From Heterotrichella gracilis (taxonomy: Eukaryota; Sar; Xanthophyceae; Tribonematales; Xanthonemataceae): a stretch of 40,925 bases of DNA. The translations under genes were made by a program, and so were the position numbers. Below, one piece after another: positions 1,568 to 40,893 of this stretch. How positions within the stretch are numbered: the stretch's first letter is position 1; the number at the start of each line of letters is the position of its first letter. The stretch is from NCBI GenBank assembly GCA_032358255.1, contig JAULBX010027053.1:1-40925 (forward strand), given 5' to 3'. Below the pieces are notes generated by a model that was not told the DNA's origin, made no database searches, and saw only the letters and a list, made by a program, of their open reading frames with translations.

Positions 1568-4500
1568 ATGGCGCGGGGGCGAGGCAAGGGCAAGCGCAGT
1601 GGCGGCGGTAGCGTTGCCGCCGCCCCTCCACCCGCAGCGGAGGTGGAGGATTTGTACGAGGCGGAGGAGGTGGCACCCGAGGAGGAGCGCAACCGAACCA
1701 AGAACCGCTATGACGTATGTACAATGCATGCATGCATATAGCCAACCAACAGAAAATGTGGTTGTACAAAACTTGTCTAGAGATTGTGGACGTGGGGGCA
1801 GATTGAGATGAGTTTTTTGTGTGGGGGTGGTATTACGCGGGCGGCAAGGGGGTTGGGGCACTATGTGGGTGGGCAGCAAACCCTAGTCGGGGGTTTCAGG
1901 GGGTGGGGTGACGCCAGCATGCTTGCTCCTTCATTGGGCTGCAAGGAGGCACAATGGGGCGCTATCATGCGGATACAGGCAACCCTGTGCATCCTTAAGA
2001 CAGCCTTTCTCTTTGCGCCATTGCAGCTCGGTTTCAAGTACCATACTTGCCTTTTCCATGGTCGGAAAATCCCCCTCCTTTCCCCCCCAACACACCACCC
2101 ACTTCAGCCCCACCTTAGGGACAGAGCAGCAAAGTTTCCCAGCGTGTCGCCTAGTAAGGGTTTTGGGTTTAGATTTGCAGCACTCGCCCCCTCACCACTA
2201 CACACCACCACGGCACCACACCCCCACCCACCCACACCCGCCCGCGCCACCTTGAAATCCGAGGACGAGGAAATTAACAAATGCCATTATAATGAATACT
2301 TTATTTTGCCTATGACTATTGACATTTTTATCTCCTGTTTGCAGAATGTGGCCAGCTACGAGTACGAGCTGCCCTCCGATTTTGAGGACGAGGAAATAGA
2401 CGAGGATGCCGCCTTCACTGAGGAAGACAAGAAGCTGTATGCGGGCTGGTTTGGTGATGATGGGGGTGACGATAGCGGGAGTGGGGAGGGGAGTGAGAGC
2501 GGGAGCGAGGCTGACCTGTTGGAGAGCGATGAGGGGGAGGATGGAGAGGAGGAGGAAGGGGAGGAGATGTCTGACGAGGTAATGGGTCAGTGCAGAAAAT
2601 CATGATCAAGTGAAGGTTGTAACCCCACATCATCGAAATCAAGTACGTGGAAGGTCAAATCAGCTGCCAGCCCTGCATGCCTTGCACCAATCAGCCCCAC
2701 TCTGGCACAGCCTGTAACATCTCTCCTCCAGCGATCCTGGGGAAAAAGCATGGAAGTTTGAGAACGTGTACCCTGCCAAGTTGGCTAATACCACCCCCCT
2801 TGCTGCAGGAGCTGGTATCAGGGGAGGATAGCGAATCCGACCTGCAAGGGTCGGAGGAATTCGACCCTCCCTCAGGGAGTGAAAGCGATGGGGAGGAAGA
2901 AGAAAACGGGGATGACCTGGACGCGCTTTTTGGCCCCGATTCCGGTTCTGATTCCGACTCACTAGGGGAGTTGTCAGGGGAGGAGGAGCAGATTGATGCA
3001 GAGGGGGAGAGGCACCAGGAGCTGCTGGCAGAAATCCAGGTGTGTTTTGTGATGCATGGTGCAAGTGCAATCATAGGTTAACTGTGCTTGAAATAGCTGA
3101 TGCTGCAGCAAATGCGCTCTGAGAACTCTGGTGATGCTATTTGCAGGGGGAGAGGAAGAAGAGGAGGAGAGGGGAGGTGGTGGTGTCTGAGGCGGCTCCG
3201 GAGAGCGAGTTCAACCTCAACCCCTCCAGCGCCACAGACGGTAGGGTTTTGGGGGCGTGCGGGCCAGGGTTTTGAGGTGGTGTGGTGGACGGTTTCGTGG
3301 GGCTGGGCTAGTGGTGGCGTTTGAATTTGCAGCTGAGGGGACCACAATTATTAGGGTTTTTAGAGGTCGTGCTAGGGTCCATGAGATGTGTCACTAAACC
3401 CCATCCCAGAGGATCAGGAGCAGATGATGTATCCATTAATCGGCAGGACTGGGGAAGGGTAGCAACAACACATTCTACATAGAATGTGCTGGCAACTAAT
3501 TATCAATACGAAGGACACATAAGTTATCCGTATCGGGCGTTCACCTCCAAACCCCTGATGGCAAACCATAACCCCAAACCCTCGCCCCCCACAGGGCCAG
3601 GCGCGGGCGATCTTTCCATGGCTGACCTATTGGCGGGACTTGGCGACAGCCGCAACAAGCTGGGGGGTGCACGCAAGGCATTGGAGCGGATGGAGCGCAA
3701 ATCCCGCCCCGTGGCGCCCCCCCTGCCGGGGCCTATTAGGCAACGATTGGCTCGTCAGGCTGGGTATGAGCGAACCTCCAAGGATATCAGCAAGTGGACG
3801 TCCATTGTCAAGGTGGGTGGTGATGGTGGTGGTGGTGGTGGTGGTGGTGGTGGTGGTGAGAGGGGTGGTTGGGAGGTGGTGGTGGTATCGTAGGGGGCAA
3901 ATTTGTGCTCACGGCAACCCCCTCTTGCTGGGGCCTAACAGTCAGGCGAGGATATGAGCGCATCTCCAAGGATATCAGCGAATGGACGTCCATTGTCCGC
4001 CCCCATCGTCCGCCCCCGTACTCCTCTTACATATCGTCTCCCTTCTTCTTTCCTCTCCTTGTGCATCCATGCGCCACCTCTCCCTGCACAACCCCCTTCG
4101 CCATCCCTCATCCCCTCAATCCATCCCCTCCCCTACCTCCCGTCACCCCCCAACCCCACCTTGCAGTCCAACCGCGAGGCCCCCACCATCAAGTTTGAGT
4201 CTGCTGTTAACGAGGTGCCACTTGTCAACACCACGGCGGCGCTGGCGGCGCAGTTTGAGCCAGGTGAGGACGCCACTTAAAATAGATGGTTGGATGGGGA
4301 AAATCTGTAACAGAAAATTATAACATTACCGTACTCAGATGTGGTACTCCAAAAAATCTGAAATTGCGACAATTTATTTAGATGTTTTGTTTCAAGCAGA
4401 TGTTGTTCTTTTGCACTTTGTGAGGATACTTTCCCACCGCTACCCACACACTGCTGAAGGCTTTAAACCCTACCCAAAACCCCACAACATGAGCCTACAA

Positions 4501-7500
4501 ATCCCCTTCCCGCAGCCCCTGATGGCATGGAGGCTGAGGTCGCAGCACTGCTGGCTGCTGCTGGGGCTGGTGAGGGGAAGGCGGTGGCGCAGGCAGAGGA
4601 GGAGCTGGCCATGAAGGTAGGGTTTTGTTAGGGTTTGGTGGCGTATGGCAGGGTTGTGGGTGGGAACAACTGATTGGAGAGTGCTAAAAATGGCAGGCGC
4701 TGTGGATGGACCAGGCGTACTGTTATCATTGATTTGGGCTTAGGGTCTGGGGTTGGGGTTTCCAATTTATAATCCCCATTCCTCCAGGCGCTGTCAATGG
4801 ACGAGGCGACTGTTACCATAAATTAGGGTTTAGGGTCTAAGTGTAGGGTTTCTTATTACTATTCCCCACCCCCAGGCGCTGTCTATGGACGAGGCGCGCG
4901 CCCGTCGCGAGAAGCTTTCCCGCATGCGCTCCCTGCTGTTTTACCACGAGCTCAAGTCCAAGCGCCTCAAGGCCATCAAGAGCAAGGAGTACCACAGGCG
5001 GAGCAACAAGGCGGAGAAGAGGAAGGTGGGGCCAGATACGATATCTGATTCAATACATATGTTGCTTTATTGGGTCAAAGTTGGGACCTTCACCGTTGTC
5101 CTGAATGCTGGGATGCTGCTGAGTCCTGGGGTTATGCCGCCCCAGGGATTGCCCTGGCCCCTGGCGATGACCCACATGCTGACGAAGATGTTTACAATAG
5201 ATTATATCAAATTAAAATTAAATTATAATGCTGGCGTGCATTATTAATAATAATTAAATTATTATTAATATGACTTTTATTGTTCCTCGCCATCCTCAGG
5301 CGCTGGCCCTGGGCGCCGACCTAGAGGATGACGAGGACACCGCCCGGCAGGCAGCGGAGGAGGCTGAGCTGGCGCGCGCCCGCGAGCGCCTGACCCTCAA
5401 GCACAGGAACACCTCCCGCTTTGTGCGGCGGGCCATCCGCAGGGGGAGCACGATAGTTGACGAGGGCACCAGGGAGGCGGTGGCGGAGCAGCTGCGCCTG
5501 GGGCAGCAGCTGCGGCGCAAGGTGGGTATGGTAGGGTTTTTGAGGGAGGGTTTGCTAGGGGTTTTGGTGGAGGGTGCTGGAGTTTTCAGGATTTCATGGC
5601 CTTATAACGTGTCATGGGCCATTGATCATTGATGATCATCAACTGTGACCATGATGAGTACATAGCACCCATCAAACTGTGGTCGGCTGGCAAGGGTCCG
5701 CACGCATGTGGTCAGCAACGATTGCACCCTACTGATCAATTGGCGGGAGTCATCACACTGTGGCGATTGGTGCAAATCGGGCGCATGCATGTACTGAGCA
5801 TCGATTGCACCATAACGGATCAGTTGACAGTGGTGGTCGTGTGCAGATTGAGCGCATGGATGGCGGGGGCTCAGGCAGCACTGGCGATGAGTCCACCTCA
5901 GGCAGTGAAGGGGAGGAAGGGGAGGGGGGCCAAGGGGAGGAGAGTGGTGCGAGGAAGCAGAGGAGGCTGGACAAGGCTCGAGCAGCTGCTCTGGAGGTGC
6001 TGGAAGGTGGGTGGGGGTGGAAACCCTACAGGCCAAGTGAAACCCTACACTGCAGTTGAAGTTCTACAGTGAACTCCTCAACGTGAGGTTTCCATTGCAT
6101 ATATTGGCTGATTCAATTCATGATCGGACACGAATGAGTGAGCATCATTTTCGTTTTTGGTAGATAGTGGTAATTTAGCCTCCCTATAGGCAGCCCCCTC
6201 GAGCCAACTTCGTAACCACTCCCCACCCGCAGACACCGGCCCAGACCCGGCCTCCATACCCTCCAAGGGTTTGTTCGCCCTCCCCTTCATGACCCGAGCC
6301 AGGCAGCGCAAGCACCAGCAGGCAGCGGAGGACGCACGCGATTGGCTCAGGGAGCTTGATAGGGAGGCTGCGGCGGGGGGTGGGGATGCGGCGTGGGGGG
6401 GCGAGGGGGGCGACGAGGATGCGGTGGGGGGTGGGGCCCGGATGCGGTTCGATGCGGGAGGGGGCGAGGGGCCGGCGGTGCAAGGGAGCGACAGCGAGTG
6501 AGTGTGTGGAGGGGGGAAAGGGATGTGAGATTGGATTGTTTGATTGTGATTTGAGAGGTGGAATGTACCCCTGTTGTTTTGGGTGCTGTGAAGTTCATAT
6601 GGAGACGTGGTTGTTGCATGGTGGTGACAGATCTGCATGTAGGGTGAGGCGGGGACGGGAGACTCAATGAGGTGTAACCCTCTCATTACCCTAAGGGTTT
6701 TGGTTCTGAGCCAAGCTGTTTGGTGTGTGCCCCAGGGAAGCAGGCTCCGACCAGGAAGGAGGGGAGGAGAGGGCCAGGCGAGTCAGCGCCAGGCTGGCGG
6801 CACAGTTGGAACCTCCCACACCCTCGGGCACCGCTCCGCCTGGCCCCTCCACCGCCAAGGGGGGCAAGCAGGGGAAGAAGAAACGGGGAGGGAAGGCGCA
6901 GGCTGCGGGAGATGGGGAAGAGGAGGAAAACCCCGGCGCAGGGTTTTCTGCAGTGGTGATGACCGATGGATTTGTGTCTGTGGGGGGTGGGGCTGGTGGC
7001 AGGGGAGCAGAGCAGGCAGTGGCGACGAGAGGTGCGAGGGGGGATGCCGCATCCCGGATGCGATACCTGTTGAGATGTTGTGCATTTGAGATGTGGGTGG
7101 GTGGGGAAGGGGTGGGGGGGAGGTTGCTATGCATGGTTATGGTGGATTGAAGGGATTGCTTTCTTAAACCCTAGGCAGGCCCCTTCAATCAAACCTTTAG
7201 ACTGCTTTGCATATCACCATGTCACTGCTTTGCATGTGTGTGTGCGCTGCGCTCCTTTTTGACACCCTGGACTGGGGTTTACAGGTACCGAGGCCGCAGC
7301 GCTATCCGCAGAACCCTTGCCCGTCCGCAAAAACCCTAGGCAGCAGCAGCCGACAGCCAATGGCGCCGCAGCACCAGAAACGCATGCCAGGGGGGTGCAA
7401 AATGGGGGCACGCATGCCGCCGACCCCCACGGGAATTTCATCAAATCCAACAAATTCAAGGGCCCCAAGCCCGGCTACCTGTTCAAAAAGGGGCACCAAG

Positions 7501-10682: not shown

Positions 10683-13429
10683 TCAGCCTTCTCCAGGCCA
10701 CAACTCCATCAACCTCTCCACGCAAGCCTGCTCCAGCTGCGTGGCATTGGCCCCCTGAGCCTGACCCACGGCCTCCACCTCACTCATCACAACCGTCTGA
10801 TTGGACCCATCCTGGTACCTAACCGGCGCGTTCTTCAGCGCCGTCTGCTTGCAGTACTCCCTTAGATTGGTACTGGGCGACTGCCCCTGCACGTGCTTTT
10901 CATAGTATTGCCCTATGATGGAGCTCACCTCCCGCTGGCTCATCACATCAAACACATCGAGGCTGCTGTCGGCTTTCTGGTAGCTGCGTAGGGCGCTGCA
11001 GTGGAAGTGGATGCCCACCACGTCGTGGCAGGGGTTCCACACGCTGTAGTTGTAGGCCTTGAACACAGCCATGAACACGCTCTCGGTGCCCAGCCGGTTC
11101 TGCTCAAAGTGGAGGTGGGTCTCCTGTGCAAACAGCATGGGCCTTTGTAAGGGTTTAGGGTTTTAGGGTATGAATACGCTCTCGGTGCCCAGACGGTTCT
11201 GCTCAAAGTGCAGGTGGGTCTCCTGTGTGCAGAGCATGGCCTTTGTAAGGGTTTAAGGTTTAGGGACTAGGGTTCTGCTCAAAGTGGAAGTGGGTCTCCT
11301 GTACAAACAGCATGGTTTTTTCCAGGGTTTAGGGTTTAGGGTATGGAGTGGCAGGGTGGTGCCCGGCCGATTCTGCTCAAAGTGCAGGTGGGTCTCCTGT
11401 GCACAGAGCATGGGCCTTTTAAGAGTTTAGGGTTTAGGGTTTAGGATTTAGGGTTTAGGGTATGGAGTGGCAAATAGAGGCTTTGTTACGCAGTATTTAA
11501 AAATGCAATCAGCTCGCTCATGCCAAGGCAGAGCTGGGTGGCGCAAATCAGTGCAAAGGTCTGGTGCTGTGCTAGATTGCAGGTTCTTATCTGGGAGGTC
11601 ACTTGGTGCGAGCAGACTACAGGCGACAGTTTTGGGTTGTAATACTGTGTAGCGGCAACTGTACCGAGCAGGCTGCAGCTGGGTTGAGTAAGGCATGCAC
11701 CTGGATGATCAGGAATAGGCAGTGTTGGGAGTGCTTCACCCACCATGGCCTTGGGAGCGGGCGCTATGAAGCAGAACGCGTCGTGGCCCATGACATAGGT
11801 GTGGCACCAATTCCCATACGAGTGTGCACACTGGGTGGCAGGGTGCGAGGACAGGTTGTCGTGTCTGCTCAGCACAAACAGGTCCTGCTGGTTCATGATG
11901 TTGAGCAGCTTCACGGAGCCGGTCCACATGATGTCAGCATGGCTGAGGAGCTGCAGGAGACACGCGTTGAGGGTTTAAGGTTTAAGGTTATTGTTTGAAT
12001 TTATTAGGAGGATATTTCTAATACAAATATTCCTAATAACAATTGATTATTGTCCTCTACAGTGACAGAAAGAGTGGATGCTGGCTGGTAGCGTGGAAGC
12101 TGATTGAGGCTGTGGCTGATGCTGTGTGGGTGGTTTGGTTATTGGTTGGCAGGTGTACCCCATGGCATACTTGACACCACCCTATGACCAAAATGTGGCT
12201 TGCACCACCCACTGTCAAATCACTGCCATATGATAAACACTGACACCCAGCACCCTTGACAAGAAAGCAGGCCCCTGCACCTACCGCGATATCCCCGTGC
12301 GGGATCATGGTGTTGATGTACTTGATGTAGTCAGAGTACCACAGCTGGTCGTTGGAAGGCACCACCACCACCTTAGAGTTGTCAAAGGCGATGGCAGGCA
12401 GAGCTACTTTGATCACATCAGGCACTAAGCTGGAATTGCTTGCGTCCACCTGTGCAAAGGGTAGAGTGTAGGGTTTAGGGTTTAGGGTAGGTAAGCCAAG
12501 GGCCACATGGGCTGCCCATCTCCAGCTGGACCTCAAGTCGCGTGGGATGAATAGATGGTTCAAACAGTGCCAGGATAGAGCTGCGTGGCGCCGCATGTGC
12601 AAGACTAACTGCTAATCTGGCTGTCTTGCTGGAATGCATGTAACTAACTAACTAACTAACCTGCGCAAAGCCCTGCCATGGAGGTGGAGCCGGGTAGACG
12701 GCCTGGTCTATTTGCAGCATGATGTGTATCCTGCTGATCTCAGGATTGGCCAGGTTGCCCTCCAGGACTGTTTCCAGCTCTTTTCGCCGGGCACGCATCT
12801 GGTCTGTGGCCTCTGCACAAGGGACATTGGGGCAGTTCCTTGAGTGGGCTAGAAATGGGTGATGTCCTTCTCTCTGCTAACTCTTCTTCCTTACCCAACG
12901 TGTCTTTTCAAGTACAAGATGAGATGTCACTTATTGTGTATTGAGGAGTGGGTCAATGCAGAGCAAGTATAGACTTACCAGCCTCATTTCTCACAACTTG
13001 CCAGTAGGAGTGGACAAGGTGTACAGGTCTCAAGGTGTAGACCACTGGCTCGGGAACAACGATGGCCGTCTCATTGAGGGCTGTCTCGTTGAGAGCTGTT
13101 TCATTGAATGCTTTCCCCTCAACGAAGGTGACGTTCAACGTCATGTTGGCAAAAAAGTGCATCCCGCTGACGGTTTCATTCGTGGAGAAGGCCCGAGTGA
13201 AAGGGGCTAACAACTGGGCCCCTTGCCAGAACGTGCAGTCGTGGCACCACTTTGTGAAGTAGAAGAAGAGGGTCATAGCCAGTATGTTGCACGCTGAGAT
13301 GGTGAGGAGACAGCAGGCCCCGCACGAGCCCCGTTGCTTGGACCCACACCATGTGCTCTTGTGGCATGTGCCATGCGGTAGATTAACCCCCGTGCAACCG
13401 GCCTCCTCCTCGATCCGGCTCTCGCCCAT
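10683..13429 (-). CDS. Type II membrane glycosyltransferase-like protein, 5 exons
   Basis: Exons, read on the minus strand: 13429-12979, 12812-12661, 12449-12285, 11950-11744, 11123-10683; all GT-AG and in frame, 471 aa. A cytosolic tail of ~35 residues precedes one membrane segment (about 36-58), then a stem with sequons at N84, N95, N99, N109, N114 and N119. The lumenal part reads in order: RRKELETVLEGNLANPEI (like the R-x-x-E-x-x-x-x-L-x-x-N of this type), FDNSKVVVVPSND, GDIALLSHADIMWTG (a DxD-like position after H-A-D), LFVLSRHDN, GHDAFCFIAP, and NRLGTESVFMAV followed by NPCHDVVGIHFHCSALR. This order resembles uncharacterised algal and plant nucleotide-diphospho-sugar transferase-like proteins with N-A-D-I and S-R/T-R-W/H-D motifs. 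Substrate unknown. A Golgi location is inferred from topology. Confidence 0.75.
11163..11462 (-). repeat. Three tandem copies of the exon 5 acceptor and exon start, with telomere-like spacers
   Basis: The real exon 5 begins at 11123. Copies begin at 11222, 11298 and 11396 (spacings 99, 76, 98). Each starts with an AG acceptor (for example TTTGTACAG or GTGCACAG) followed by GAG ACC CAC ... TTT GAG CAG AA. Copy 1 keeps 17 codons with three silent changes before ATA CCC TAA. Copy 2 keeps nine codons and then ends in TAA inside a telomere-like motif. Copy 3 keeps about eight. Spacers are TTTAGGG-like; the longest run (about 11424-11462) has about five heptads. Confidence 0.92.
12641..12660. repeat. 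(TAAC)5 microsatellite forming the donor of exon 2
   Basis: Five TAAC units abut exon 2 of the minus-strand gene, so its donor reads GTTAGTTAG. Each unit provides another GTTAGT donor-like site four bases further on. Use of a shifted site would break the frame. Confidence 0.85.
13064..13112 (-). repeat. 15-bp tandem repeat encoding NETAL x3
   Basis: Three 15-base units in exon 1 of the glycosyltransferase-like gene encode N-E-T-A-(L), each a canonical N-glycosylation sequon. They lie in the stem just after the membrane segment. Unit-to-unit changes are at silent positions (AAT/AAC, ACA/ACG, GCT/GCC). Confidence 0.88.
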
Positions 13430-14868: not shown

Positions 14869-16390
14869 TCAAGTCACCTTGTCCCCGTCACACAGCTCCA
14901 ATCCCCGCAGCACCATCTCCGTATACACTAGGGAGCAAAACAGCACCGTCTCCCCAAAATTGCTGACGATGAAATGTGGCAGGGGGCGTTTGGAGGGGGG
15001 CAGGCCATTTAGCCCCCCCGCCACCAAGGGACCCACAGCAAATGCCAGCAATTTGGGGTGGCGAAATGTAGACTGCACACCCAGCAGCAGCACCAGGGAG
15101 GTGGTGCACATAGAGGGGAGGGAACGGGCCATACCCGGGCTCTGAGAGGAGGCAGGGGGGGCGTTTCAGGAATTAGTTTTTTTCAAGCATTTTCCCCTTC
15201 AATTTAGTTCCCTTTTCAACAGGCGCATGTATGACATGTAGAATATTCAGACCATGCAGATGTATCAAAGTACGCCTGCCTCCCACTTAGGCACCGCAAA
15301 CCCTAAACATGAGAACCTTCACCGTAAATTCTAAATCCACCTCATCATAGGTATATCGCAGGATGCCTGCCTTCCACTTGGGCACTGCAAACCCTAAACC
15401 TGAAACTCTAAACCTTAAACCTTACACGCACCTCAGCATAGGTGTATCGCAGGACGCCCGCCTCCCACTTGGGCACAATGCGCAGGCCCATCCACTCGTG
15501 CGCCACCCCCCTCGCCACCACACACCCCACCACCGCTGCCGCCACCGCCAGCGCCACCTCACTCCCCGCCCACCCCACCCCAGCGCGCGCCGCCATGTGG
15601 AGGGCAGGATAAAGGTTCACTGGGGCTGCGCAGTGCGCCAGGAAGCGGAAAACCGAGAGATTTTTCAGCAGGTTTTTCCTGTGCTTGGAGGCGATGCCGA
15701 TGTAGCGTCCAAGGGCCATCATGGCGTTGTCGTACACCATGCATGCTGTCATGCCGGCAATGATGCAGAGGCTGAGTGTGGAGTCTGGGCCTGCGGGTGG
15801 GGAGACGTGCATGTGGGGTTGATTGGGGGCTGTGGTGGTGAGTGGGGTGGTGGGAGAGGATGTGTCTCAATGCGGTGGGAAATCCGGGTGGTGGGTAAAC
15901 TTTAATACAATGATCGCAATGCAGCGGCCAATTTAAATGGTGATGTGCGCCATGTAAAGTGGCAGAGAGCTGTGTGATGTTACAATGCACGGATTGACCA
16001 CCGTAGGCCCTGTTTAAACATGCATGTCCTGACAATCAGCATTGGCACAACCTTGCATCCCTTCCTGTTCACTCGTGCTGCCAGGGAGCTAAATCCTTTT
16101 AGGGTTTCGGGTTTGGGGGGCATGACCTGCACCCGTTGTGCGGCATCAAGTCACACCCTATTAGGGTTTAGGGTTCCCAGCGCCGTACCTGTGCTGGTCG
16201 TGCAGCATGCCAGCCACACCGTAGTGGTTGCCAGCAAGGCATGCACCACAGCAAATGTCACCAGTAGCCCTGTGTAGATGGGGCGGAAGGTCGATCCTGG
16301 GGGGGCATGGTGCTCCTGCCCCTGGCCCATGAGGGGATGTGTGTCCAATGGGTGGTTGGCCTGCTTGGCCTGGGGCGTGGGTGGGGCCAT
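14869..16390 (-). CDS. Multi-pass membrane protein of unknown function, 3 exons
   Basis: Exons on the minus strand: 16390-16189, 15790-15432, 15141-14869; all GT-AG and in frame, 277 aa. The N-terminal ~35 residues are Pro/His-rich and soluble. Hydrophobic stretches follow at about 38-62 (GLLVTFAVVHALL), 72-95 (LCIIAGMTACMVYDNAMMAL), 120-170 (Ala/Val-rich, probably two segments), 200-225 (CTTSLVLLLGV) and 245-265 (ETVLFCSLVYTEMVL). The motif YDNAMMALGRYIG followed by LSVFRFLAH is distinctive and reminds me of uncharacterised plant membrane proteins with a YDN-x(5)-G motif, but I cannot assign a named family. No signal peptide or catalytic motif is visible. The start is the first in-frame ATG and has only modest support. 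Confidence 0.6.
15258..15390 (-). repeat. Two tandem copies of an exon 2 3' end and donor, 91 bp apart
   Basis: Copies ending at about 15385 and 15294 (plus coordinates of the shared GGCAC) repeat the real exon end at 15432-15476, with spacings of 91 and 91. The nearer copy reads VPKWKAGILRYTYDE and keeps a GT after the last codon. The farther one is disrupted by TGA after a few codons. Each unit carries a GTTTAGGGTTTGC telomere-like segment. Confidence 0.9.
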
Positions 16391-24100: not shown

Positions 24101-24969
24101 TTTTAAACCCTGGCCGATGCAGAGCTGGGATGCAAAACCTGCGCAGTGGTGGCTGCGGGTGTAGCCTATCTCTGCTAAAACCCTAAACCCTACAACCTAA
24201 TCAACTGTTTACCGCCTTTTCCCGTTTACAGGACCCCTTCAATGGCACAGTGGTGTACCGCCTGGGTAGCGACGACCTGTTTGACGCATGTGCTACAGTG
24301 TGCACGCTGGATTGGGTGCCACGCCTGCTGGCCTACGATGCTTCTGGCTTCCCGGTCGGGTAAGCCATGCAAGAAACCCTACGCTAGGGTTGTGGATAGG
24401 TCCTTGGTGCCTGTCTGGTAATGATATGCCTGCTGGTGGCGCACAAAAACCCTGGATCAGGGTTTTGATAGTGTAGGTGGACACGTGATGCAGCAGGGCC
24501 GTCGTTATATTGGTACTGCAGAATTTTACATGTAGGAGTACACTTGAAGCATGCGTAACAGTGCCTCGCATCTTTTCAATGATGATTGATTATGTCACTC
24601 CCCTTCATGTACCCCCTTACAAGCCACAAAACCCTTACAAAACCCTTACATCATCCCCCCGTTCCCCCTGTCATGATCAGGCTGGGCGACGTGGTTGTGC
24701 ACCCCACCCCCTACTACAACTACACCTGCTCCTCCCTGGAAGTCTCGTGGGTGTACCAGACCCCTTCCTCCCCCACCTACTATGTGGTGACGGTGGACCC
24801 AGCTCGCTCTCCCTATCCCGGGGGGGGCTACATCTTCTTTTTGGAAAAGGACATTGCCTGTTCATACGATCCCGAGGAGGTGCTGAGCAAGCTGGAGAGC
24901 TACGCCCCTGTGGTAGGAGCCGAGGCCAATATCTACGTCTCGCTGTTGTACAGCCAAGGGCTGCTGTGA
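18124..24969 (+). CDS. Secreted lysyl-endopeptidase-like (trypsin-fold) serine protease, 12 exons
   Basis: Exons: 18124-18199, 18624-18793, 19195-19313, 19655-19895, 20369-20639, 20952-21118, 21434-21612, 21915-22164, 22628-22797, 22987-23374, 24232-24359, 24681-24969; all GT-AG and in frame, 815 aa. Residues 1-25 are a clear signal peptide (MRLKAMAVLLPTLLLLAALG). Residues ~95-290 resemble the pro-region of Lys-C-type enzymes (SELALPPGAHIFAYNPS). The catalytic triad fits His ~310 in LLLTANHCFG, Asp ~360 in DALSDTALLRV and Ser ~449 in TETGSSGSGLLDS. VGWDARNATPYSAYAVHHPN is typical of lysyl endopeptidases, which cleave after Lys. Residues ~492-815 form extra beta-rich, N-glycosylated domains (SGLEAYLTSSDS, NGTVVYRLGSDDL) of unknown role. 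Specificity for Lys is inferred from family only. Confidence 0.85.
18413..18499 (+). repeat. Copy of protease exon 2 start ending in an in-frame stop
   Basis: The acceptor CTCTGCAG at 18415-18422 is followed by a 77-base copy of the start of exon 2 (real start 18624, spacing 201). In the frame set by exon 1 it reads ALGPLGQRAWAAVSDLVAEE, then T-S-I and TAG. The TAG is part of CTAGGGTTTAG. Of five codon differences in the first 20 or so codons, four are silent. It may be a decayed duplicate or a usable poison exon. Confidence 0.85.
19390..19416 (+). repeat. Copy of protease exon 3 3' end downstream of its donor
   Basis: AGCCACCACATGGTCA from the end of exon 3 (19291) recurs at 19393 (spacing 102) and is followed by GGTGGGGG, as at the real border. 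The nearby GTATGTGTG runs are also shared. Confidence 0.75.
20181..20284 (+). repeat. Well-preserved copy of protease exon 5 start (possible alternative exon)
   Basis: An acceptor (ATGCCAG) at 20189 precedes a copy of the first ~78 bases of exon 5 (real start 20369, spacing 179). It stays open and reads GLLTSNIYLLYQVFYAYADM-FPGLI against the real GLLTSNIYLLFQVIYGYADI-FPGLI. Hand count: nine silent and five replacement changes, the latter mostly conservative. The copy then runs into a telomere-arm palindrome at 20265-20284. No obvious donor follows at the matching place. Confidence 0.88.
20655..20675. repeat. Telomere-arm palindrome in protease intron 5
   Basis: AAAACCCT-GGCGC-AGGGTTTT begins 16 bases after the exon 5 donor. 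It is almost identical to the element in UTP14 exon 12 (6927-6947), and a diverged relative lies in protease exon 6 (about 21094-21110), where it encodes N-P-G-I-G-Y. Confidence 0.8.
21281..21309 (+). repeat. Copy of protease exon 7 start in intron 6
   Basis: GGTCTGGATGTGGTGTG followed by ATCTGA corresponds to the first ~28 bases of exon 7 (21434, spacing 153). The acceptor has decayed (ACAAAG in place of CCGCAG, AG retained). An AT-rich island (about 21222-21275) directly precedes it. Confidence 0.78.
22461..22627 (+). repeat. Two tandem copies of protease exon 9 acceptor and start
   Basis: Copies begin at 22469 and 22556; the real exon 9 begins at 22628 (spacings 87 and 72). Copy 2 keeps AYDSGL exactly after a CTGCAG acceptor and shares the preceding ATTACTTCC(G/A)ACTGCAG. 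Copy 1 keeps only GCAGGCCT and partial similarity. Confidence 0.85.
22841..22863 (+). repeat. Copy of protease exon 9 3' end downstream of its donor
   Basis: CAACAGCAGGGCGATTGGCA matches the exon 9 end AAAACAGCAGAGCAATCGGCA (spacing 67). The GT of the donor has changed to GATG in the copy. Exon 9 is therefore flanked by copies on both sides. Confidence 0.78.
23665..23683. repeat. Telomere-arm palindrome in protease intron 10
   Basis: GAACCCT-AGCTA-AGGGTTC, 19 bases with perfect 7-base arms. Related elements lie at 24375-24391 (AACCCTACGCTAGGGTT) and 24446-24466 (AAAACCC TGGATCA GGGTTTT) in the next intron. Confidence 0.8.
23781..24231 (+). repeat. Two ~220-230-bp tandem units before protease exon 11
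   Basis: Copies of the exon 11 start lie at 23781 and 24012; the real exon starts at 24232 (spacings 231 and 220). Copy at 24012: acceptor CCACAG, then DPFNGTVVFRLGSDDLSDAC and four to six further codons ending CTC TAA, the stop lying in CTCTAAACCCTAAC. It has six silent and four replacement changes over 26 codons. The copy at 23781 is older and frame-shifted. The intron parts, including a CTGCTAAAACCCTAAACCC block, are duplicated too. Confidence 0.92.
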
Positions 24970-26159: not shown

Positions 26160-29100
26160 ATGCGCGCTCCTGGGCGGCTTGCTGTGGCTCTGGCCGCTGC
26201 GTTGGTTACTATTTCCAGCCAATTGGTAAGGCAAGCGCCCAAAATTCTGCACACCGTTTTGCATGCATTGTCATCAATATGGAACCCTCGCGTCAATGGT
26301 GCGTCGAGGTTGCCCCTGTCACATATCTACGTCAACCTTCGTTTCTCTACTTTGCCATACCCTGTTATATCAGCAACAGTTCTACTCCCACCACCTCCTA
26401 GCTGATTTTAGCTGAACAAAGGCCAATGTCCCAGCACCTGACCAAGGTCTCGGAAGCCCGCTCTTGTGCGCACTCTAGCACACTAGCGCGTTTGTTTTTG
26501 ACTCCTGTATTGCTTTGCTGAACCATATGGTAAACTTGCAGGTGCTAGCGAGCGGCCAGTCTGCTGATGCACAACTCCCTCGTGCCGGTCCACCAGCCAG
26601 GGTGTCCCAAACCTCAACTGGCGCATCCAGTCGCCGCCTGTTGGCAAGTACTAACGCGGCAAGTACCCTCTATACCCTTTCGCCTCGAAACCTGGACGAT
26701 CATTCCGTTGCTTGATACCCAAATGTGGCATGACGTTGGACACCCTGGTGGGGTGTAGGCGTGGGCATGCCGGAGTCTATTACTGTACTTGTTTGCACTT
26801 CAAAACAGCCCAACCAGTGCCCAAAAAACACCATTAGTTTTGGCATCTGTAAGGAATTACAGCCTGCGTATAAACATATATAAAGTTTTGAACCGCCAAT
26901 CACGTTGCTGTTGCTGGTGGGCGGTGAGGCCAGGATTGCTGACCAATTCTAAGACAACACCGAATGGCGACTATGGCCCGCTCAGTGCGAAATGAGTATG
27001 GCGGGCTGTACATGTTCATGACAACCAGCACCTTGTACGCCACCCGCAGCACGCCTGACCTTGCTTTGCCTTGCACACCGATACCCTAAACCCTAAACCC
27101 GACTCTTCCAGGCTGGCCTCGCAGAAGGCCCAGCAGGATATGATCAGTATGACCTCATGGAGCAGCTGGCACAGTGCCAAGCAACGGTGGTGGAGCTGCA
27201 GCAGGAGATTGAAGGGCTGACTGAGGACCAAACCCCCTCGCTGTGCGCCCCAGCGCCCGCATTGAGCAGCCACCGACCGGATGATATTGGGCCCCAAGAG
27301 CTGCCCGCAGCATCCCTACCACCAGCGCAGGTGAGTGGGTTTGTAGCTGTGGCATAGCTGGGCAGCTGATGTGGGGATAGAGCTTTTCAAATGTGTGGTG
27401 AGTGGTCAGGTGGTGTTTGTGTTTGCTACCCCACCTGTCTCACCCATGTGCCTGTCAGGGTATAGGGGTTCAAGGTTTTGCTTTTCCTCCTACAATCAGA
27501 CGGCTGAACAGTCTTTTTCTAGTGACTGTGTGATGGAATCAAATTAGATTTAATTACACTCATCTGAAATTATGATTGTCAAAGGCTGCATCTGGTGCAT
27601 CCACAGCAGCAGCAGCAGATGCAGCCTCAATGCTGTAGATGCTGCCTCAATGCTGATGAGGCTGCACCTGTGGATGCCAACTCCAGTGGACCTACTATTA
27701 TCCTGGTTATGTGCCACCGCTGATTACTTTACGTAAAGGCCTGTATTCACATATGCGTTGTGTGTGCACTCTTGCAGATTGACCCCCCACCCCCTCCCCC
27801 AGCCGCACTAGTGGAAGCGGAACAGGATTCTGAGACCGGAAAGGTGAGCCGCTGAAATAATAATAATTGCTAACAATAAACAATGCCAATAAAAGGATTC
27901 TGAGACCGGCAAGGTGAGAAGCGCCGCTGAAGTGTAATGACCACACAGTCTTTCACCTCAAGACGTCAGAGTACAAAGGTTGAAGCCCTAGATGTTGCCT
28001 TTGATTTCATGCAGTGCGTTTTGCTCAGGAGTGTTCTGTGATTAGCACTGCTGCATCCAGGAAATGCTGTTCCAACGTGGGTGATCAGCCAGAGCTTTCT
28101 TGCCAAATGCTGCTGCATGTAGGGGTTAGAGGTCTGAACCCATGGGGTTCAGATAAGGGTTTTTAATTAGAATCTAATTTCAGGATCACTGAAAACTCTG
28201 CTCCTGTGCTGCAGTGCCCCGTTGGGACCTTCAAGCGGGGCGGCAAATGCTATGTCTGCCCCGACGGCCACTACCAGGACAAGGAGGACCAGAAAGCTTG
28301 CATCGCTTGCGCAACAGGGACGTCCTTGAACTCAGACGCTTATGACAAAACCAGCTGCTCTCCGTGCCAGGCTGGCACCTACCAGCCCCAACCTGGGCAA
28401 GCAGACTGCCTGGGGTGCCCCGATGGCCAGTTTCAAGACAAGGAGGGGGCGATTAGCTGCAAGATCTGTGACCCAGGATCATACAGTACCCAGGGTGAAA
28501 CAGACACCTGCACTTTGTGCAGCGCCGGCACGTACCAACCCAAGGCTGGGCAAGGGGAGTGCCCTGCTTGCCCTGAAGGCCAGTTTCAAGATGAGGAAGG
28601 CAAAACAAGCTGCAAGCCATGTCCCGCTGGGTCGTTCAAGTCAGCTGGTGATGGAGATACATGTGATTCATGCTCGTCAAACACCTACCAGCCCCTCACG
28701 GGCCAGCCAACATGCCTTGACTGCCCGTTCCGCCAGTATCAAGACCTCGAAGGGCAGACAGGGTGTAAAACGTGCGGCGCAGGATATGCCTTCAGAAGCG
28801 ATTACATCGAGACCTCCTGCACGCCATGCGCAGCAGGATCCGCGCTGTCCAACCTCACCGACACCACCTGTGGGTGGTGCAACCCAGGGTATTATCAGCC
28901 CAAAGGGGGTCAGGCTGACTGCCTGGCTTGCCCAGCAGGCACAGCGGTATTGGCACTGGGCTCAACCAATGCAACGTTGTGCACCCCCTACCTGCCAGGT
29001 AAACCCTAGACCCTAATCCCACCCAGAGTGTTCATTTGTTCACAAAGAACCAGGAAATGCGGTTGCACTGCAGAAAGTTGCTGACACTGCTAAAGTTGCT

Positions 29101-35153: not shown

Positions 35154-35569
35154 CGCTGCTGGGGCCAGCCAGCAATGCTTGTGCTTTCACATCCGGATGC
35201 CGTCAGACGAAGATCAGATTGACGTGTGGGCACATACACAAGACCAAACGCAACTGCCCAAAATAAAGCATATATGCAGGTAGCACCACGCACAAAGACG
35301 TGCGAACAGCACTGCATACAGCGGGTTTGTGTGCATTTGTTGTTGTTGACATCAGCTAGGAACTCCCGCCATACTGGCCCGACACCACCCGGGTGACCCT
35401 ATCCACCTGCACAGTTATTGAGATAAGCGTACACTTTTCAACGGTGTACTCGTTCTCATATATACCACAGCGTGCTTTGGGCGTGCCCTGGGCTTGATAA
35501 GGCACAAACAGCCGTTGCACAACTCAACCCAAGCTCGTGGCCGACGGTGGTCCCGAGCCGAGGTTTGCG
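35154..35569. promoter_or_regulatory. 416-bp divergent spacer, probable bidirectional promoter
   Basis: The starts of the Lys/Arg-tail gene (minus, 35153) and the EttA-like gene (plus, 35570) are 416 bases apart, so both promoters must share this spacer plus any UTR. A TATATA-like ATATATACC at about 35458-35466 lies ~105 bases before the EttA ATG and could be its TATA element. This is position-based inference. Confidence 0.45.
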
Positions 35570-38500
35570 ATGCAGCAAGGGGGCGTGCACCTATCCAGGA
35601 GCGCCTTCCTGGATGGTGGGAGCGGTGGCCGACTGCTGGCGCCGAAGCCTTTCACTGCCTGCCGCCGTTCCTCTGCCGCCAACACACCCGTCAGGTGATA
35701 AGCATGCCATATCTAGATGCAATGCATGCATATGCAGCTGTGCAATAGGCAACATACACCACACCCGGTGCTCATCCCTTTGCGTTACCCCACAAGGTTG
35801 CATATAAGCACTTAAGTGTACGACGGACTGCAGTGGTGCGTCAAAATACTGTAAAAAGGTGAAGTTCTTGTTACAGTACCGTACCCACCATCCTAGCCAA
35901 CACCGCGCCACTATTGCCTGCTCCACACTAGCATCCTCCTGAGTGTCATCAGAACATATTTCCCATTGATAGGTCCTGCGGTGCGCTGACGTTGTGTTTG
36001 TGTTGGGTTCAGAGCGGCTAAGAGGGTGAAGGGGCCCAAAACAGGGGGTGGCAGCAGCAGCAGCGGTGGTGGCGGTGGCGGTAGTGGCAGCAAGGGTGGC
36101 GGCGGCGGTGGTGGTGGCGGTGGCGGTGCACCCAAGTATAAGTCGCCAGGACAGGTCAAGGAAGGGTAGGTCAAACAGTGTGGCAGGAGGCGTACTCTAG
36201 GGACAATGGTGGCGTGCCCGCGTATAATGTTTGCAATTTCCAAGCTAGCCTATGCTTTAATCTGCCTAAACACCTCCCATTCGTACATCCCTATTGCATC
36301 TACCAATACCCAACCCATGCATCGGCCACAAAATCCTGACTGCCCAGCATACGACCAAAACCCCATCACAAACCCTATCACCACCCTTGCCGAAACCCTA
36401 GCAAAGCCTGACACGAACCTTGCCAAAACCCTCATAACCCAAAACCCTAACGCACACCCTTGCCATAACCCTTGCAGGTCTGCCTACTCCCAGGAGACGC
36501 GCAAAATCATTTTGTCCCTGGACCGGGTCACCAAGGTGGCCCCAAATGGCAAGCAAATACTCAAAAATGTGGGGCTGGGCATGTACCTGGGGGCCAAAAT
36601 CGGAGTGCTGGGCGCCAACGGTAGGTAATCAGCACAGGACCTTACTGCTCATGTTTTTTGTTATTAGCATTCGACCAGGCAAGGGGGGTTGCATTGCACT
36701 GTCATTCGTTTGCAATAATGAAGCTTTTAAAATAAGGTGGCACCACTGCACCTAATTGATGGACCCCCACCCCACCCCAACCCCACTGGAGCAGCATGAA
36801 TTGTCTGTGCAATTCAAGGCATTCTATCAAATTAATTTGTTCAGTTGTCCACCACATTCTACCCCCCATTCCACCGCTTCAGGCTCCGGCAAGTCCTCTG
36901 TGATGCGAATCCTTGCGGGCGAGGACGACGGCTTTGACGGAACCCTTACCCTAACCGAGGGTATTAAGGTTGGCCACCTGAAGCAGGAGCCGGAGCTGAT
37001 TGCAGGGGCAAGCGTGATGGACAACATCCGACCAGCACTGGAGAGCATCCAGGCCATGCTGAACGAGTTTGAGGAGGTGGGATTGTAGGGTTTTAAGGTT
37101 TGGGGCTTGGGTTGTTGACTTTGTTTTGGACTACTGGCTTGCAGTCGAGTGCATGCTGGTTGAGTTTGGGGGATGTTTGTTGATTGCTTGAGCCAGCATG
37201 ATGGAGAACATCCAAGCCATGCTAAGCGAGTTGAAGGAGGGGGGAAGCGATTTTCAGGATCATCCTGAGTCAGCCACCTGTCTCATGCACTGCCACCGCC
37301 ACCGCCACACCCTCACACCCTTCCGCCCCTCCCCTCAGGTCAGTGCAAAGATGGCGGCACCAGACGTCGATGTGGAGCCCCTGATGGCCCGCATGGACCT
37401 CCTCCAAAACAAGATCGATGCTGCGGGTGGGTGGGAGCTGGACAGGCAGCTGCAACGGGCAATGGATGCGCTGCGATGCCCGCCAGGTAAGGGTTTGGGG
37501 CTGGGTTGTTAGGGTTTAGGGTTTGGGGCTGGGCATTTAGGGTGTAGGGTTTGGGTTGGACACGCAGTTTGAGGCTCAGTACATGTTCTGCGATGCCCGC
37601 CAGGTAAGGGGTACCGCAGTTTTCTTTCCTTCTCGTGTTAGATTGACTATTTTACGTTTGGGGGGTGACCTTAATGCTTAAAACCCTCCATTTCCCCACC
37701 AAAGGACGCCAGAGTGAGGCATTTGCTGGCTAGCGGTAGTGCGTGGCCTAGCAAAGCCTACTTAAATATCACACAAAACCCTACTCAAATCCTGCAAATC
37801 CTTACCTTCGCACCCCTTCCTTTCCCCTGCAGAGGACGCCAACGTGGATGTGCTGAGTGGGGGTGAGCGGAGGCGTGTGGCCCTGGCCCGGCTGCTGCTC
37901 GAGTCCCCAGACATCCTGCTGCTGGATGAGCCCACCAACCACTTGGATGCAGAGTCGGTGGCATGGCTGGAGAGGTTCCTGGCGAGCTTCAGGGTGGGTG
38001 GGGTTGTTGGAGGGGTTCCTTGCGGGGTTTAAGTGGGTTTCGGCCCACACAATTTTAACCCAATTAATAATTGCCATAAGTACAATTGGAGGAAAAAATG
38101 GTGATAGCCAACATTGTCGTAATCTTTATTAGCAAAATCATATATTGCGTGCATTTTCGTTGCATGTAACTAAACCTTCCTTAAATCTATAACTGAAGGT
38201 TCCTTCTTAAAACCTATTAAAATCTCCCGCAGGGCACTGTGGTTGCCGTCACCCACGACCGCTACTTCCTTGATAATGTGGCAGGGTGGATCCTTGAGCT
38301 GGACCGGGGCCAGGGCATTCCCTTTGAGGGCAACTACACACAGTGGCTGCAGGCCAGGGAAAAGTGAGGGGAAACCCTGCAAACCCTACGAAAACCTTAC
38401 AAAATCTTGCGCTCGTGCTGAGCAAATTCTGCACATCCTTTAAAAACTTCATTGCTACCTACATACTGTTACACAAAAGGGGGTGGCATGCGTGGCTGCA

Positions 38501-40893
38501 GTTCGTCAAAGTGAGGAAGTCCCTGGAAGCCCTCACAGCCCTGGTGCATGCGTGGTTTGGTTACTTGTGGTGGATTCAGAATGCATTGTACACGCTGAAA
38601 CACCTAATATGTCCTAAAACCCTAAAACCCCCAAAACCCCAGGCGCCTGTCTACCGAGAAGCAGCAGCAGTCTGGCCTGTCTGCCGCCATCGCCGCTGAG
38701 CTAGAGTGGGCCAGCCGGCAGGCCAAGGGGCAGCAGAAGAAGGGCAAGGCGCGCATGCGCAGGATTGAGGACCTGGAGCAGCAGGTGGGGGTTGGGCTAA
38801 GGTTTTATAAGGTTTTGGCTAGGCTTTGCAAAGCTTATGGGTCAGGCATTGATTCGGGGGGTGGGTGGGCTGCATGTGGTGGGGTAAAGTCAGGGTTATG
38901 ACCAGGCCAAGGACCAGCAGCAGATGGGCAAGGTGCCAATGCGGAGGGATAGAGGACCTGGAGCAGCAGGTGGGGGCGGATAGGGTTTTGGGGCTGTGTT
39001 CCCTTGGCACCCCCGCACACGCAGTATACCTTGGACGGTAAAAGTATTCATCAGGTTATTGCATACCCTTTGTGTATACGTTAAACCCCCAATAAAGAAA
39101 CATTGCTAAACACAGACGTCGTTTGTGACACCAGCCCCTCCTCTCACGCCACCACCATCCTCTTCCCCTCCCCTCCCCCACTCATCGCCCTGCCCCCCCT
39201 TCCCCTCTCCCAGGCAGCTGAGTACACCAAGAACTCCACCATCGATACCATCACCATCCCCTTGGGACCGCGGCTGGGGAGCGTGGTGGTGGAGGCGCAG
39301 GGATTGGCAAAGGCATTTGGGGACCGGCTGCTGATCGATGACCTCAACTTCAGCGTGCCTCCGGGGAGCGTTGTTGGTGCGGCGCTATGGGGGGGAAGGG
39401 GGGCAGATTGTTGCAGTATTACATCCTTGAGATATAGCAGGCAGCACGGTTGGGAACAGTCGACCCCATTTTGATTGGTAGGGTGAATCAATGTCACACC
39501 CCGTCACCTGACCCCACTTCCTCAATGGCGGCAATGGCGCGGTCAGTCCAACCCACCACACTACCCACAATAAGAATACATACAAAGTACCCTGCACCCC
39601 ACCTCCCCCACAGGCATCATTGGTGGCAACGGCGCGGGCAAGTCCACCCTGTTCAAGATGATCATGGGCGAGCTGCAGCCCGATGGGGGCACAATCACCG
39701 TGGGCGAGACGGTGGTGCCCATGTATGTGGACCAGTCACGGGACTCGCTGGACCCTAACAAGTGAGCTCAAAAACCCTAAAACCCTATACTTAGACTGAT
39801 GATGGTGCTCATTTTTGTGGATCAGCCCAGGTACTTGATGGGCCATGCCAAATGAGCTCGCAAAAAACCCTATAACCCTACATCCTGATGCTTGTGTTCT
39901 GGTGTGTGGACCTGTTAGGCAAGTTGGTGGACCCTGATATTCCCGATTATGGTCTTTAAATAGTCCTCAATATTGGTCCCATCATGGCCCCTATTTCCCC
40001 CTGATCCTGATTTGCATCGGCTATTTGCAGGACTGTGTATGAGGAGATTGGTGGCGGTGATGAGCTCATTGACCTTGGGGGCAGGACCATCCTCACGCGC
40101 GCATACTGCTCGTGGTTCAACTTCAGGGGCGGAGACCAACAGAAGCAGGTGGGAGGGGAAATCGAGGGTATGGGGAGGGGGTGGGCAGTGTAGGCACTTT
40201 GCACACCTTTAGTTGCAAATCGCCACTCCAGTACCCACCACACACCCACCACACATAAGCAAGCATGCTATTCGGTGTCAAACACACCTCATCCCACCTC
40301 ACACCTACCCAGGTGGGCGTGCTTTCCGGCGGCGAGCGCAACCGGCTCCACCTGGCCCGCACCCTGCGCCAGCGGGGTTGCTTCTGCTGGATGAGCCACA
40401 CCACTCTCCCACACATGTATGAATCGCCACACAACATCAAAGGGCATGCTGTCTGCTAGCAAAAAACACTTCTTTGACACCTCCCACCATCACCCTTCAC
40501 CGCAGGTGGGCGTGCTTTCCGGTGGCGAGCGCAACCGCCTGCACCTGGCCCGCACCCTGCGCCAGCGCGGCAACCTGCTGCTGCTGGATAAATTCATCTA
40601 AATCTCCCACACAATATGAATCACCACACAACACAAATCGCCATGCTGCCTGCTAGCAAACACTTCTTTGACACCTCCCACCATCACCCTTCACCGCAGG
40701 TGGGCGTCCTTTCCGGCGGCGAGCGCAACCGCCTGCACCTGGCCCGCACCCTGCGCCAGCGCGGCAACCTGCTGCTGCTGGATGAGCCCACCAACGACCT
40801 TGACGTGGACACCCTGAGGGCGCTGGAGACCGCGGTGGCAAACTTTGCGGGCACAACCATGGTGATTTCCCATGACCGCTGGTTCCTGGACAG
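35570..40893 (+). CDS. EttA-type ABC-F ATPase with probable plastid transit peptide, 12 exons, 3' end cut
   Basis: EttA binds the ribosomal E site and gates the first elongation step according to ATP level. Exons: 35570-35694, 36013-36165, 36478-36620, 36883-37076, 37339-37486, 37833-37993, 38233-38363, 38643-38784, 39214-39376, 39614-39761, 40031-40148, 40700-40893 (606 codons plus two bases); all GT-AG and in frame. Exon 1 (Ser/Arg/Ala-rich, one acidic residue) reads like a transit peptide; exon 2 is Gly/Ser-rich. NBD1: Walker A GANGSGKSS split across exons 3/4, the EttA arm ([30 protein letters not shown]), [33 protein letters not shown]. Linker with basic helix (exon 8). NBD2: [11 protein letters not shown], the EttA-specific [14 protein letters not shown] and [46 protein letters not shown]. 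Only the C-terminal ~40-50 residues are missing. The plastid location is inferred; a mitochondrial one is possible. Confidence 0.92.
36048..36129 (+). repeat. GGN/AGC codon expansion in EttA exon 2
   Basis: GGTGGC-type repeats encode a ~27-residue Gly/Ser run right after the presumed transit peptide. It makes a flexible spacer before the first ATPase domain. The same codon type is expanded in the neighbouring gene at 32576-32654. Confidence 0.88.
37150..37245 (+). repeat. Copies of EttA exon 4 3' end downstream of its donor
   Basis: GCCAGCATGATGGAGAACAT (from 37192) and the following bases match the exon 4 end (GCAAGCGTGATGGACAACAT, from 37009) over ~50 bases after a short deletion. A weaker, older copy may lie at 37150-37180. 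Neither keeps a clear donor. Confidence 0.82.
37555..37610 (+). repeat. Copy of EttA exon 5 3' end with intact donor
   Basis: TGCGATGCCCGCCAGGTAAG at 37589-37608 is identical to the real exon end and donor at 37472-37491 (spacing 117). Upstream, the copy is diverged but still alignable (GGACACGCAGTTTGAGGC against GGACAGGCAGCTGCAACG). The donor could be used only as an alternative 5' splice site extending exon 5. Confidence 0.88.
38896..38975 (+). repeat. Copy of EttA exon 8 3' end and donor
   Basis: CAGGCCAAGGACCAGCAGCA...GAGGACCTGGAGCAGCAG|GTGGGGG repeats the end of exon 8 (38708-38790) with a few indels; spacing is 185. The donor is intact. Indels put the copy out of frame. Confidence 0.87.
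39799..39871 (+). repeat. Copy of EttA exon 10 3' end with lost donor
   Basis: GGTGCTCATTTTTGTGGATCAG matches the exon 10 segment GGTGCCCATGTATGTGGACCAG (shown here in part), and the copy ends CCAA|ATGAGCTCGCAAAAA where the real border is ACAA|GTGAGCTCAAAAA (spacing ~91). The GT to AT change removes the donor. Confidence 0.82.
40313..40699 (+). repeat. Two ~193-bp tandem units preceding EttA exon 12
   Basis: Units begin at 40313 and 40506; the real exon 12 begins at 40700 (spacings 193 and 194). Each has an acceptor (CCCAG or CCGCAG), ~85 bases of exon start and ~105 bases of intron. Copy 2 reads [20 protein letters not shown], then RGNLLLLD and K-F-I-stop. Copy 1 has a deletion after RQRG and shifts frame. 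Differences in the aligned codons are all silent (two in copy 2, four in copy 1). The intron halves of copies 2 and 3 are almost identical, so the last duplication is recent. Confidence 0.95.

Follow-up and report, generated by a model that had tools for sequence, protein, structure and literature searches.

Introns of the alga Heterotrichella gracilis frequently carry copies of the edges of their own flanking exons. These copies came to light in a stretch of 40,925 bp (contig JAULBX010027053.1 of GenBank assembly GCA_032358255.1), referred to here as the window, which is the complete contig C455 of a 68.5-Mb assembly in 903 contigs. The window is intron-rich, and its genes include those for UTP14 (Pfam PF04615), a Cys-rich ephrin-receptor-like protein and EttA. 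The explanation that we favor, and to which we give about an even chance, is that the copies are scars of the local repair of double-strand breaks, with staggered breaks that were often joined through telomere filler and with the products filtered by splicing. Among the observations in its favor, the repeat pairs are direct and local, the filler between the copies is unpaired, the copies are neutral, the filler is enriched in telomere repeats, and direct duplications lie around many telomere tracts.

Exon-edge copies, their frequency and their polarity

The original prediction listed 18 exon-edge copies in introns of the window. For the check, exon edges were fixed from a gene finder plus reading of the sequence. 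When 53 or 57 bp around each edge were scored against the adjoining intron and against 400 length-matched controls built from introns of other stretches, 17 of the 18 outscored every control, and these copies are therefore real. The narrowest pass was the end of protease exon 3 (20.5, with a control maximum of 20.0), and the one failure was UTP14 exon 10, whose score of 14.0 was equaled or exceeded by 43 of the 400 controls. One further borderline copy was found at the start of UTP14 exon 9 (18.0, control maximum 17.5).

The frequency of the copies across the genome was estimated from the window and another 24 stretches, none longer than 10 kb, which together make up 273,224 bp. Twenty-six stretches were taken by place, chosen by contig number, and two of these (L002 and L009) were dropped for low GC and a lack of introns; loci found through searches (L001 and L026-L034) are excluded from all counts. 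The sample contains 85 local direct repeat pairs and 1 inverted pair, with only 6 direct pairs at spacings of 600-3000 bp. Because two stretches (L035 and L036) were added later, close to contigs already known to be rich in duplications, the 85-pair set leans upward; without them the sample (its first 253 kb) holds 72 pairs. A dinucleotide-shuffled copy of these 253 kb (one shuffle) yielded no direct pair, and a chance origin of the local direct pairs is excluded. Pair spacing ranges from 90 to 510 bp, with a median of 166 bp and a 5-95% range of 99-251 bp. The proposed size of 65-230 bp agrees with the spacing of the pairs and does not apply to the copied segments themselves. The duplicated segment (S), present as two direct copies, is roughly 40-160 bp long.

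The shuffled-pairing check that had been suggested with the prediction gave a clear answer. It was run on the 323 of 554 predicted introns that measure 80-1200 bp and have two flanking exons of at least 45 bp; 52 of the 323 are in the window, and 11 of these pass. Of the 646 edges, 67 had a copy above threshold in their own intron, 32 among the 323 exon ends and 35 among the 323 exon starts, as compared with 0 of 3,230 mismatched pairings (0 of 1615 for each kind of edge). Overall, 61 of the 323 introns, or about one in five, contain a copy of one or both of their own exon edges.

The copies had been said to lie always upstream of exon starts and always downstream of exon ends. Fifty-five of the 85 pairs could be dissected in this respect, with 16 multi-copy arrays set aside and with 13 pairs (both copies noncoding, or coding without an edge) and 1 pair lacking a 20-bp exon overlap left out. 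Exon-end copies lay downstream in 26 pairs and exon-start copies upstream in 22, with none on the opposite side, and the remaining pairs were interior (6) or involved a whole exon (1). At least one of the interior pairs reflects an error of the gene finder, which extended UTP14 exon 5 beyond its true end, to 3875. A scan of the wrong side of each intron found starts of the upstream exon in 0 of 323 introns, but ends of the downstream exon in 8 of 323 (2 of 1615 mismatched pairings). Probes from exon interiors gave 3 of 126, with 0 of 630 for mismatched pairings, and 3 of 122, with 1 of 610. Five of the eight wrong-side introns involve predicted exons of only 45-57 bp, one is ambiguous, and two look like cases of an intronic copy miscalled as an exon. 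The polarity rule therefore holds for the clear cases, 48 of 48, and leaves a few doubtful ones.

The proposed continued use of the exon-proximal site was checked by homology in one gene. EttA has five copies at its exon edges, and splicing at the exon-proximal sites gives an intact protein of 513 residues, of which residues 9-513 align with solved EttA (E 1.2e-183); the alignment has a single gap, of two additional residues, where exons 8 and 9 join. Splicing can thus act as a filter.

It might be supposed that exon edges are a special target of duplication. In 48 pairs one copy includes an edge and the other is noncoding, while random placement (2000 draws) predicts 23.0 such pairs, with an sd of 4.1 and a maximum of 39; both copies are noncoding in 10 pairs, against 28.0 expected (minimum 16). 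The 72-pair set agrees, with 42 against 19.1 expected and 7 against 24.1, respectively. However, detection accounts for at least part of the surplus at exon edges, because a pair in which one copy is a conserved exon fades more slowly. Duplications flanking telomere tracts (see below) are nearly as frequent away from exon edges (22 of 62 tracts) as close to edges (44 of 101). The events thus also occur elsewhere, and a special targeting of edges need not be invoked.

Filler, decay and telomere repeats

The original prediction ascribed the copies to plain tandem duplication across splice borders, with continued use of the exon-proximal site as the reason for their retention; slippage or unequal exchange could produce such duplications. 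The polarity of the pairs, 48 of 48, fits the splicing filter in this model, and in 8 of the 48 single edge pairs the two copies are contiguous, with less than 25 bp between them; these 8 pairs, together with the 16 multi-copy arrays, which look tandem, may be true tandem duplications. Most edge pairs are different, in that 25 to about 250 bp of filler without a detectable partner separates the copies (at least 25 bp in 40 of 48; median 89 bp). In a tandem duplication followed by intron decay, the filler should resemble the flank of the partner copy. Among the 72 pairs, 39 fillers of at least 25 bp were scored and 34 had a defined expected side, of which only 2 showed partner-flank similarity at a z above 4 and none at a z above 6. 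A filler partner of like age should have been visible, since the aligned intronic parts of edge pairs are still 81% identical (1118 of 1386 sites). With 32 of 34 fillers lacking a partner, tandem duplication with later decay is rejected for most pairs, and we consider it improbable as the usual origin.

The copies decay as noncoding DNA. Differences between exon and copy amount to 12.8, 12.4 and 22.3% at codon positions 1, 2 and 3, and of 49 indels, 39 disrupt the reading frame, the pattern obtained when the copy mutates freely and the exon adds silent changes. On these data we reject the possibility that the copies are alternative exons under constraint, or alleles. They likewise speak against an assembly artefact in which alleles or haplotypes were joined head to tail: an allelic exon would keep its frame and would not differ by 12-13% at positions 1 and 2, and the stretches that were scanned contain no Ns. 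The draft state of the assembly, with its 903 contigs, and the lack of near-identical pairs, which collapse could explain, might be cited in favor of such an artefact, to which we nonetheless assign next to no probability.

The filler often resembles the telomere repeat of the organism itself. Several contigs open with arrays of TTTAGGG (C70, C140, C526, C609, C717, C770 and C824), and in the sample 12-mers of the TTTAGGG class cover 1,319 bp while other circular arrangements of the same letters cover at most 25 bp, arguing that the interstitial tracts match the alga's own telomeres. Genome-wide, a perfect telomere 21-mer has 834 occurrences when overlapping registers are included, and the reversed pattern has none. 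Telomere 6-mers cover 10.7% of the filler, as compared with 4.5% of introns from the same stretches (maximum 7.6% in 500 draws). A perfect heptamer is present in 15 of 54 fillers (4.2 expected, maximum 11), and 21 of 54 reach a telomere cover of 10% (10.0 expected, maximum 19).

The same association is found when one starts from the telomere tracts. A direct duplication flanks the tract, within 170 bp, in 66 of 163 cases; the other 97 tracts have none. At control positions, which were taken from noncoding DNA of the same stretches at a distance of more than 170 bp from the nearest tract, the count is 78 of 815. Inverted flanking duplications occur at only 2 of 163 tracts and 9 of 815 controls. 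Tracts in the head-to-head order TTTAGGG..CCCTAAA, with a gap of up to 25, are found at 16 distinct places genome-wide and the reverse order at 4; one example inside a contig is L011:472-506. Head-to-head tracts are the form expected when two healed ends join, and their excess is what telomere addition at both ends predicts.

An alternative is that the telomere-like tracts pre-existed in introns as fragile sites, where breaks led to duplication but no telomere was added. Introns without duplications do carry telomere 6-mers (1.7% and 2.2% cover), and tracts lie near exon edges more often than noncoding DNA at large does (62% versus 38%). Against this, duplication-bearing introns show only this background level outside the copies and filler (1.8% and 2.3%), the excess being located in the filler and copies themselves; we judge pre-existing tracts to be a poor explanation, on a par with plain tandem duplication.

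The strand of the tracts is not random within introns. In the intron half nearer the 5' splice site, 46 tracts read TTTAGGG in the sense strand and 34 read CCCTAAA, while in the half nearer the 3' site the numbers are 21 and 55 (Fisher p 0.0002). The bias is weaker among tracts with no detected flanking duplication (p 0.08). Runs of G are favored near splice donors, and pyrimidines and branch-like CTAAAC near acceptors, and so the bias presumably reflects selection by splicing.

Duplication with an insert between the copies also has the shape of a long target-site duplication, as a mobile element or an introner might produce. One of the two junctions that were searched genome-wide has a 73-bp part at four other places; the other junction occurs only once in the genome. 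With telomere words masked, no match between stretches was found among 217 records (54 fillers and 163 tract flanks), which leaves a mobile element as a most improbable source. The 73-bp dispersed repeat, located inside one filler (L013:6652-6724), is 81% like the four other genomic places and has no Rfam match at gathering score.

Break repair as a proposed source of the copies

How might such structures arise? The break would be staggered, formed by two nicks, and fill-in of both overhangs would leave S on both sides. The ends would then be joined with filler, often supplied by telomerase or captured as telomere DNA; telomerase and other enzymes are the presumed agents here. Events that harm coding sequence would be lost, and those at a splice border would persist only if the original edge stays beside the exon, whereupon the filler and one copy would become part of a longer intron. 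Splicing would also determine which strand of the repeat is kept, with sense TTTAGGG being selected nearer 5' splice sites and sense CCCTAAA nearer 3' sites.

A related possibility is synthesis-dependent strand annealing or template switching, in which a break in the intron captures nearby exon-edge DNA along with filler, much as in the repair-mediated duplication described from vertebrates (PMC2671141). The product would be the same, the vertebrate cases reported there stay local, the DNA copied in them takes in exons and splice sites, their breaks show microhomology and filler, and one filler in the alga holds the dispersed repeat mentioned above. This mechanism nevertheless predicts inverted and distant copies as well. 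In the human set of that report the average distance is 1.2 kb (partly set by the method), and one of two complete duplicated exons is inverted, unlike the 85 direct pairs, the single inverted pair and the median spacing of 166 bp found here, with only the 6 distant direct pairs. We regard it as unlikely, though it is the best of the alternatives.

Several observations weigh against staggered-break repair with telomere filler. Telomerase acting at the two ends should place the G strand by the left copy and the C strand by the right, and this prediction failed: the mean relative position in the filler is 0.49 for G-strand tracts (n=21) and 0.52 for C-strand tracts (n=8). Telomere cover is below 10% in 33 of the 54 fillers, and the contiguous edge pairs (8 of 48) and multi-copy arrays fit duplication without any filler. 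In gapped edge pairs, S extends a median of 13.5 bp into the intron and 60.5 bp into the exon, and the exon part is the longer in 38 of 48 edge pairs. An exon-heavy S of this kind is not accounted for by random breakpoints, although slower fading of the exon adds to it. None of the 85 pairs reaches 95% identity, and recent events are therefore not apparent, which means either that the activity has come to an end or that young copies were collapsed in the assembly. Most exon calls come from an ab initio gene finder self-trained on the same sequence, and errors are possible.

The pairs are unevenly distributed. Eighteen of the 24 stretches outside the window contain at least one local direct pair and six contain none, with densities of 0 to 12 per 10 kb. 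Across stretches, pair density tracks the density of telomere tracts (Spearman 0.75) and shows no correlation with GC, GC3 or intron density. It also tracks the first tetranucleotide axis (Spearman 0.72), a further difficulty for the repair reading, because a second source of contigs, that is, a mixture of two algae, may underlie the uneven density.

Mammalian interstitial telomeric sequences provide the closest parallel to break repair with telomere filler. In these, chromosomes contain short internal stretches of their own telomere repeat that were inserted at double-strand breaks, and some are accompanied by direct duplication of the target (PMC2246262, including its Table 1, and PMC7215372). 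In the cases reported, the target duplications are ascribed to staggered breaks, other insertions have random sequence added, and a head-to-head case occurs in the horse (PMC2246262, PMC7215372). Duplication accompanies 4.6% of the rodent, 16% of the primate and 4.5% of the horse insertions described there (PMC2246262, PMC7215372). The alga differs from these reported cases in that 66 of 163 tracts are flanked by duplications (to be read against 78 of 815 controls), S measures tens of bp, and the tracts are dense in introns; the mammalian insertions, for their part, are backed by empty sites, while those of the alga are deduced from a single genome.

The duplication step also has a parallel in the small tandem duplications that arise from filled-in staggered ends through CST, Pol alpha-primase and end joining (PMC8355091). 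Those duplications, like the ones in the alga, are local, direct and tens of bp long, the product expected when complementary overhangs are filled in, and the orientation and median spacing of the algal pairs are of this overhang-sized kind. The reported cases concern induced breaks in human and mouse cells (PMC8355091), while the alga adds long unpaired filler and telomere repeats, and the enzymes here would be assigned by analogy. A third parallel is with the duplications across splice borders that create introns: in both, the duplicated segment crosses a splice border and splicing signals are inherited, but the cases described elsewhere create a new intron and an exonic segment, whereas the copies here sit in existing introns. 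A search of the open-access literature, with subscription papers mostly outside its scope, found no report of such a density of exon-edge copies, nor of telomere filler in algal intronic duplications. Parts of the mechanism thus have precedents, and the density in introns looks new.

Gains in intron length are usually ascribed to mobile elements. That the duplications provide a route for intron growth, as had been suggested, is borne out to the extent that introns have gained sequence, and the mark left at the junctions ties this growth to break repair and telomere DNA. We propose, more tentatively than the repair reading itself, that break repair ending with telomerase-made or captured telomere DNA is a main engine of intron growth in this genome, that thousands of introns (by extrapolation) carry duplicated edges around such a scar, and that splicing has kept the repeat strand suited to each intron end. 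Since one of the two copies belongs to a conserved exon, an event can be dated, and its breakpoints stay readable to an age at which events lying wholly within introns are no longer recognizable; the rate, the overhang size, the source of filler and the splicing filter would therefore be measurable in one genome. The duplicated donors and acceptors beside the real ones also amount to natural experiments in splice-site choice.

Individual duplications in the window and other sequences

In the UTP14 gene (forward strand), the end of exon 5 (3754..3811) is copied in the following intron at 3941..3997, with 88% identity over 57 bp at a spacing of 187 and with GGT-rich filler between. At the start of exon 8 (exon from 4876), the exon edge and its upstream copies occupy 4694..4896, with TTAGGG-like sequence between them, a period of 90 and 2.3 copies (score 26.5, 0 of 400 controls). 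The same gene has a duplication internal to an intron, at 7918-8019 and 8152-8253, with both copies noncoding, 132 bp between them and 91% identity over 102 bp.

Two genes on the reverse strand have arrays. The start of glycosyltransferase exon 5 and three upstream copies, set off by tracts of CCCTAAA type (sense), lie at 11071..11461. The end of exon 2 of a membrane-protein gene and its downstream copies lie at 15272..15476, with telomere-like sequence between, a period of 91 and 2.3 copies (score 38, 0 of 400).

The protease gene (forward strand) is affected at six exons. The exon 2 start copy (18403..18490) is separated by filler (18491-18603) from the original (18604-18691), at 89% identity and a spacing of 201; the region 18400-18700 matches only itself in the genome. 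The narrowly passing copy of the exon 3 end is at 19388..19416 (exon end 19313). Copies of exon starts are found at 20187..20283 for exon 5 (original from 20369; 82%, spacing 179), at 21281..21308 for exon 7 (original from 21434; 89% over 28 bp, 0 of 400) and at 22544..22575 for exon 9 (original from 22628; score 28, 0 of 400). Exon 9 also has a copy of its end, at 22827..22872 (exon end 22797; score 25, 0 of 400). The start of exon 11 (from 24232) and two upstream copies span 23763..24304, with CCCTAAA at 23954 and 24181.

Also on the forward strand, the Cys-rich gene has a copy of the exon 4 end at 27891..27918 (exon end 27843; score 24, 0 of 400). In EttA, on the same strand, copies of exon ends are located at 37193..37245 for exon 4 (exon end 37076; 81%, spacing 161), at 37547..37610 for exon 5, including the donor (exon end 37486; 0 of 400), at 38903..38989 for exon 8, again with the donor (exon end 38784; 83%, spacing 184), and at 39807..39859 for exon 10 (exon end 39761; score 23, 0 of 400). 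The exon 5 filler (37494-37546) is telomere-like, with telomere 6-mers covering 55%. The start of exon 12 (from about 40700) and two upstream copies form a tandem array at 40249..40783, with a period of 194 and 2.6 copies (83% at a spacing of 178).

A few other sequences were characterized along the way. A search for RNA families in seven sources gave none at gathering score, and a search of viral contigs with one UTP14 exon query gave no relatives. The two stretches dropped from the sample, L002 of contig C1 (35.7% GC) and L009 of contig C100 (34.9% GC), are covered by open reading frames of at least 150 aa over 0.91 and 0.56 of their length, respectively, and they probably lie outside the nuclear genome of the alga. 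Two light-harvesting proteins of the assembly have as their best matches the green-lineage CP26 and Lhca3 chains, the top entries of which we take to come from Dunaliella, Chlamydomonas, Chlorella and similar green algae; by themselves these matches would point most probably to a green alga. Within the window, a 161-bp repeat at 12484-12644 and 31680-31837, with its copies 19 kb apart and 67% identical, is an old dispersed repeat.
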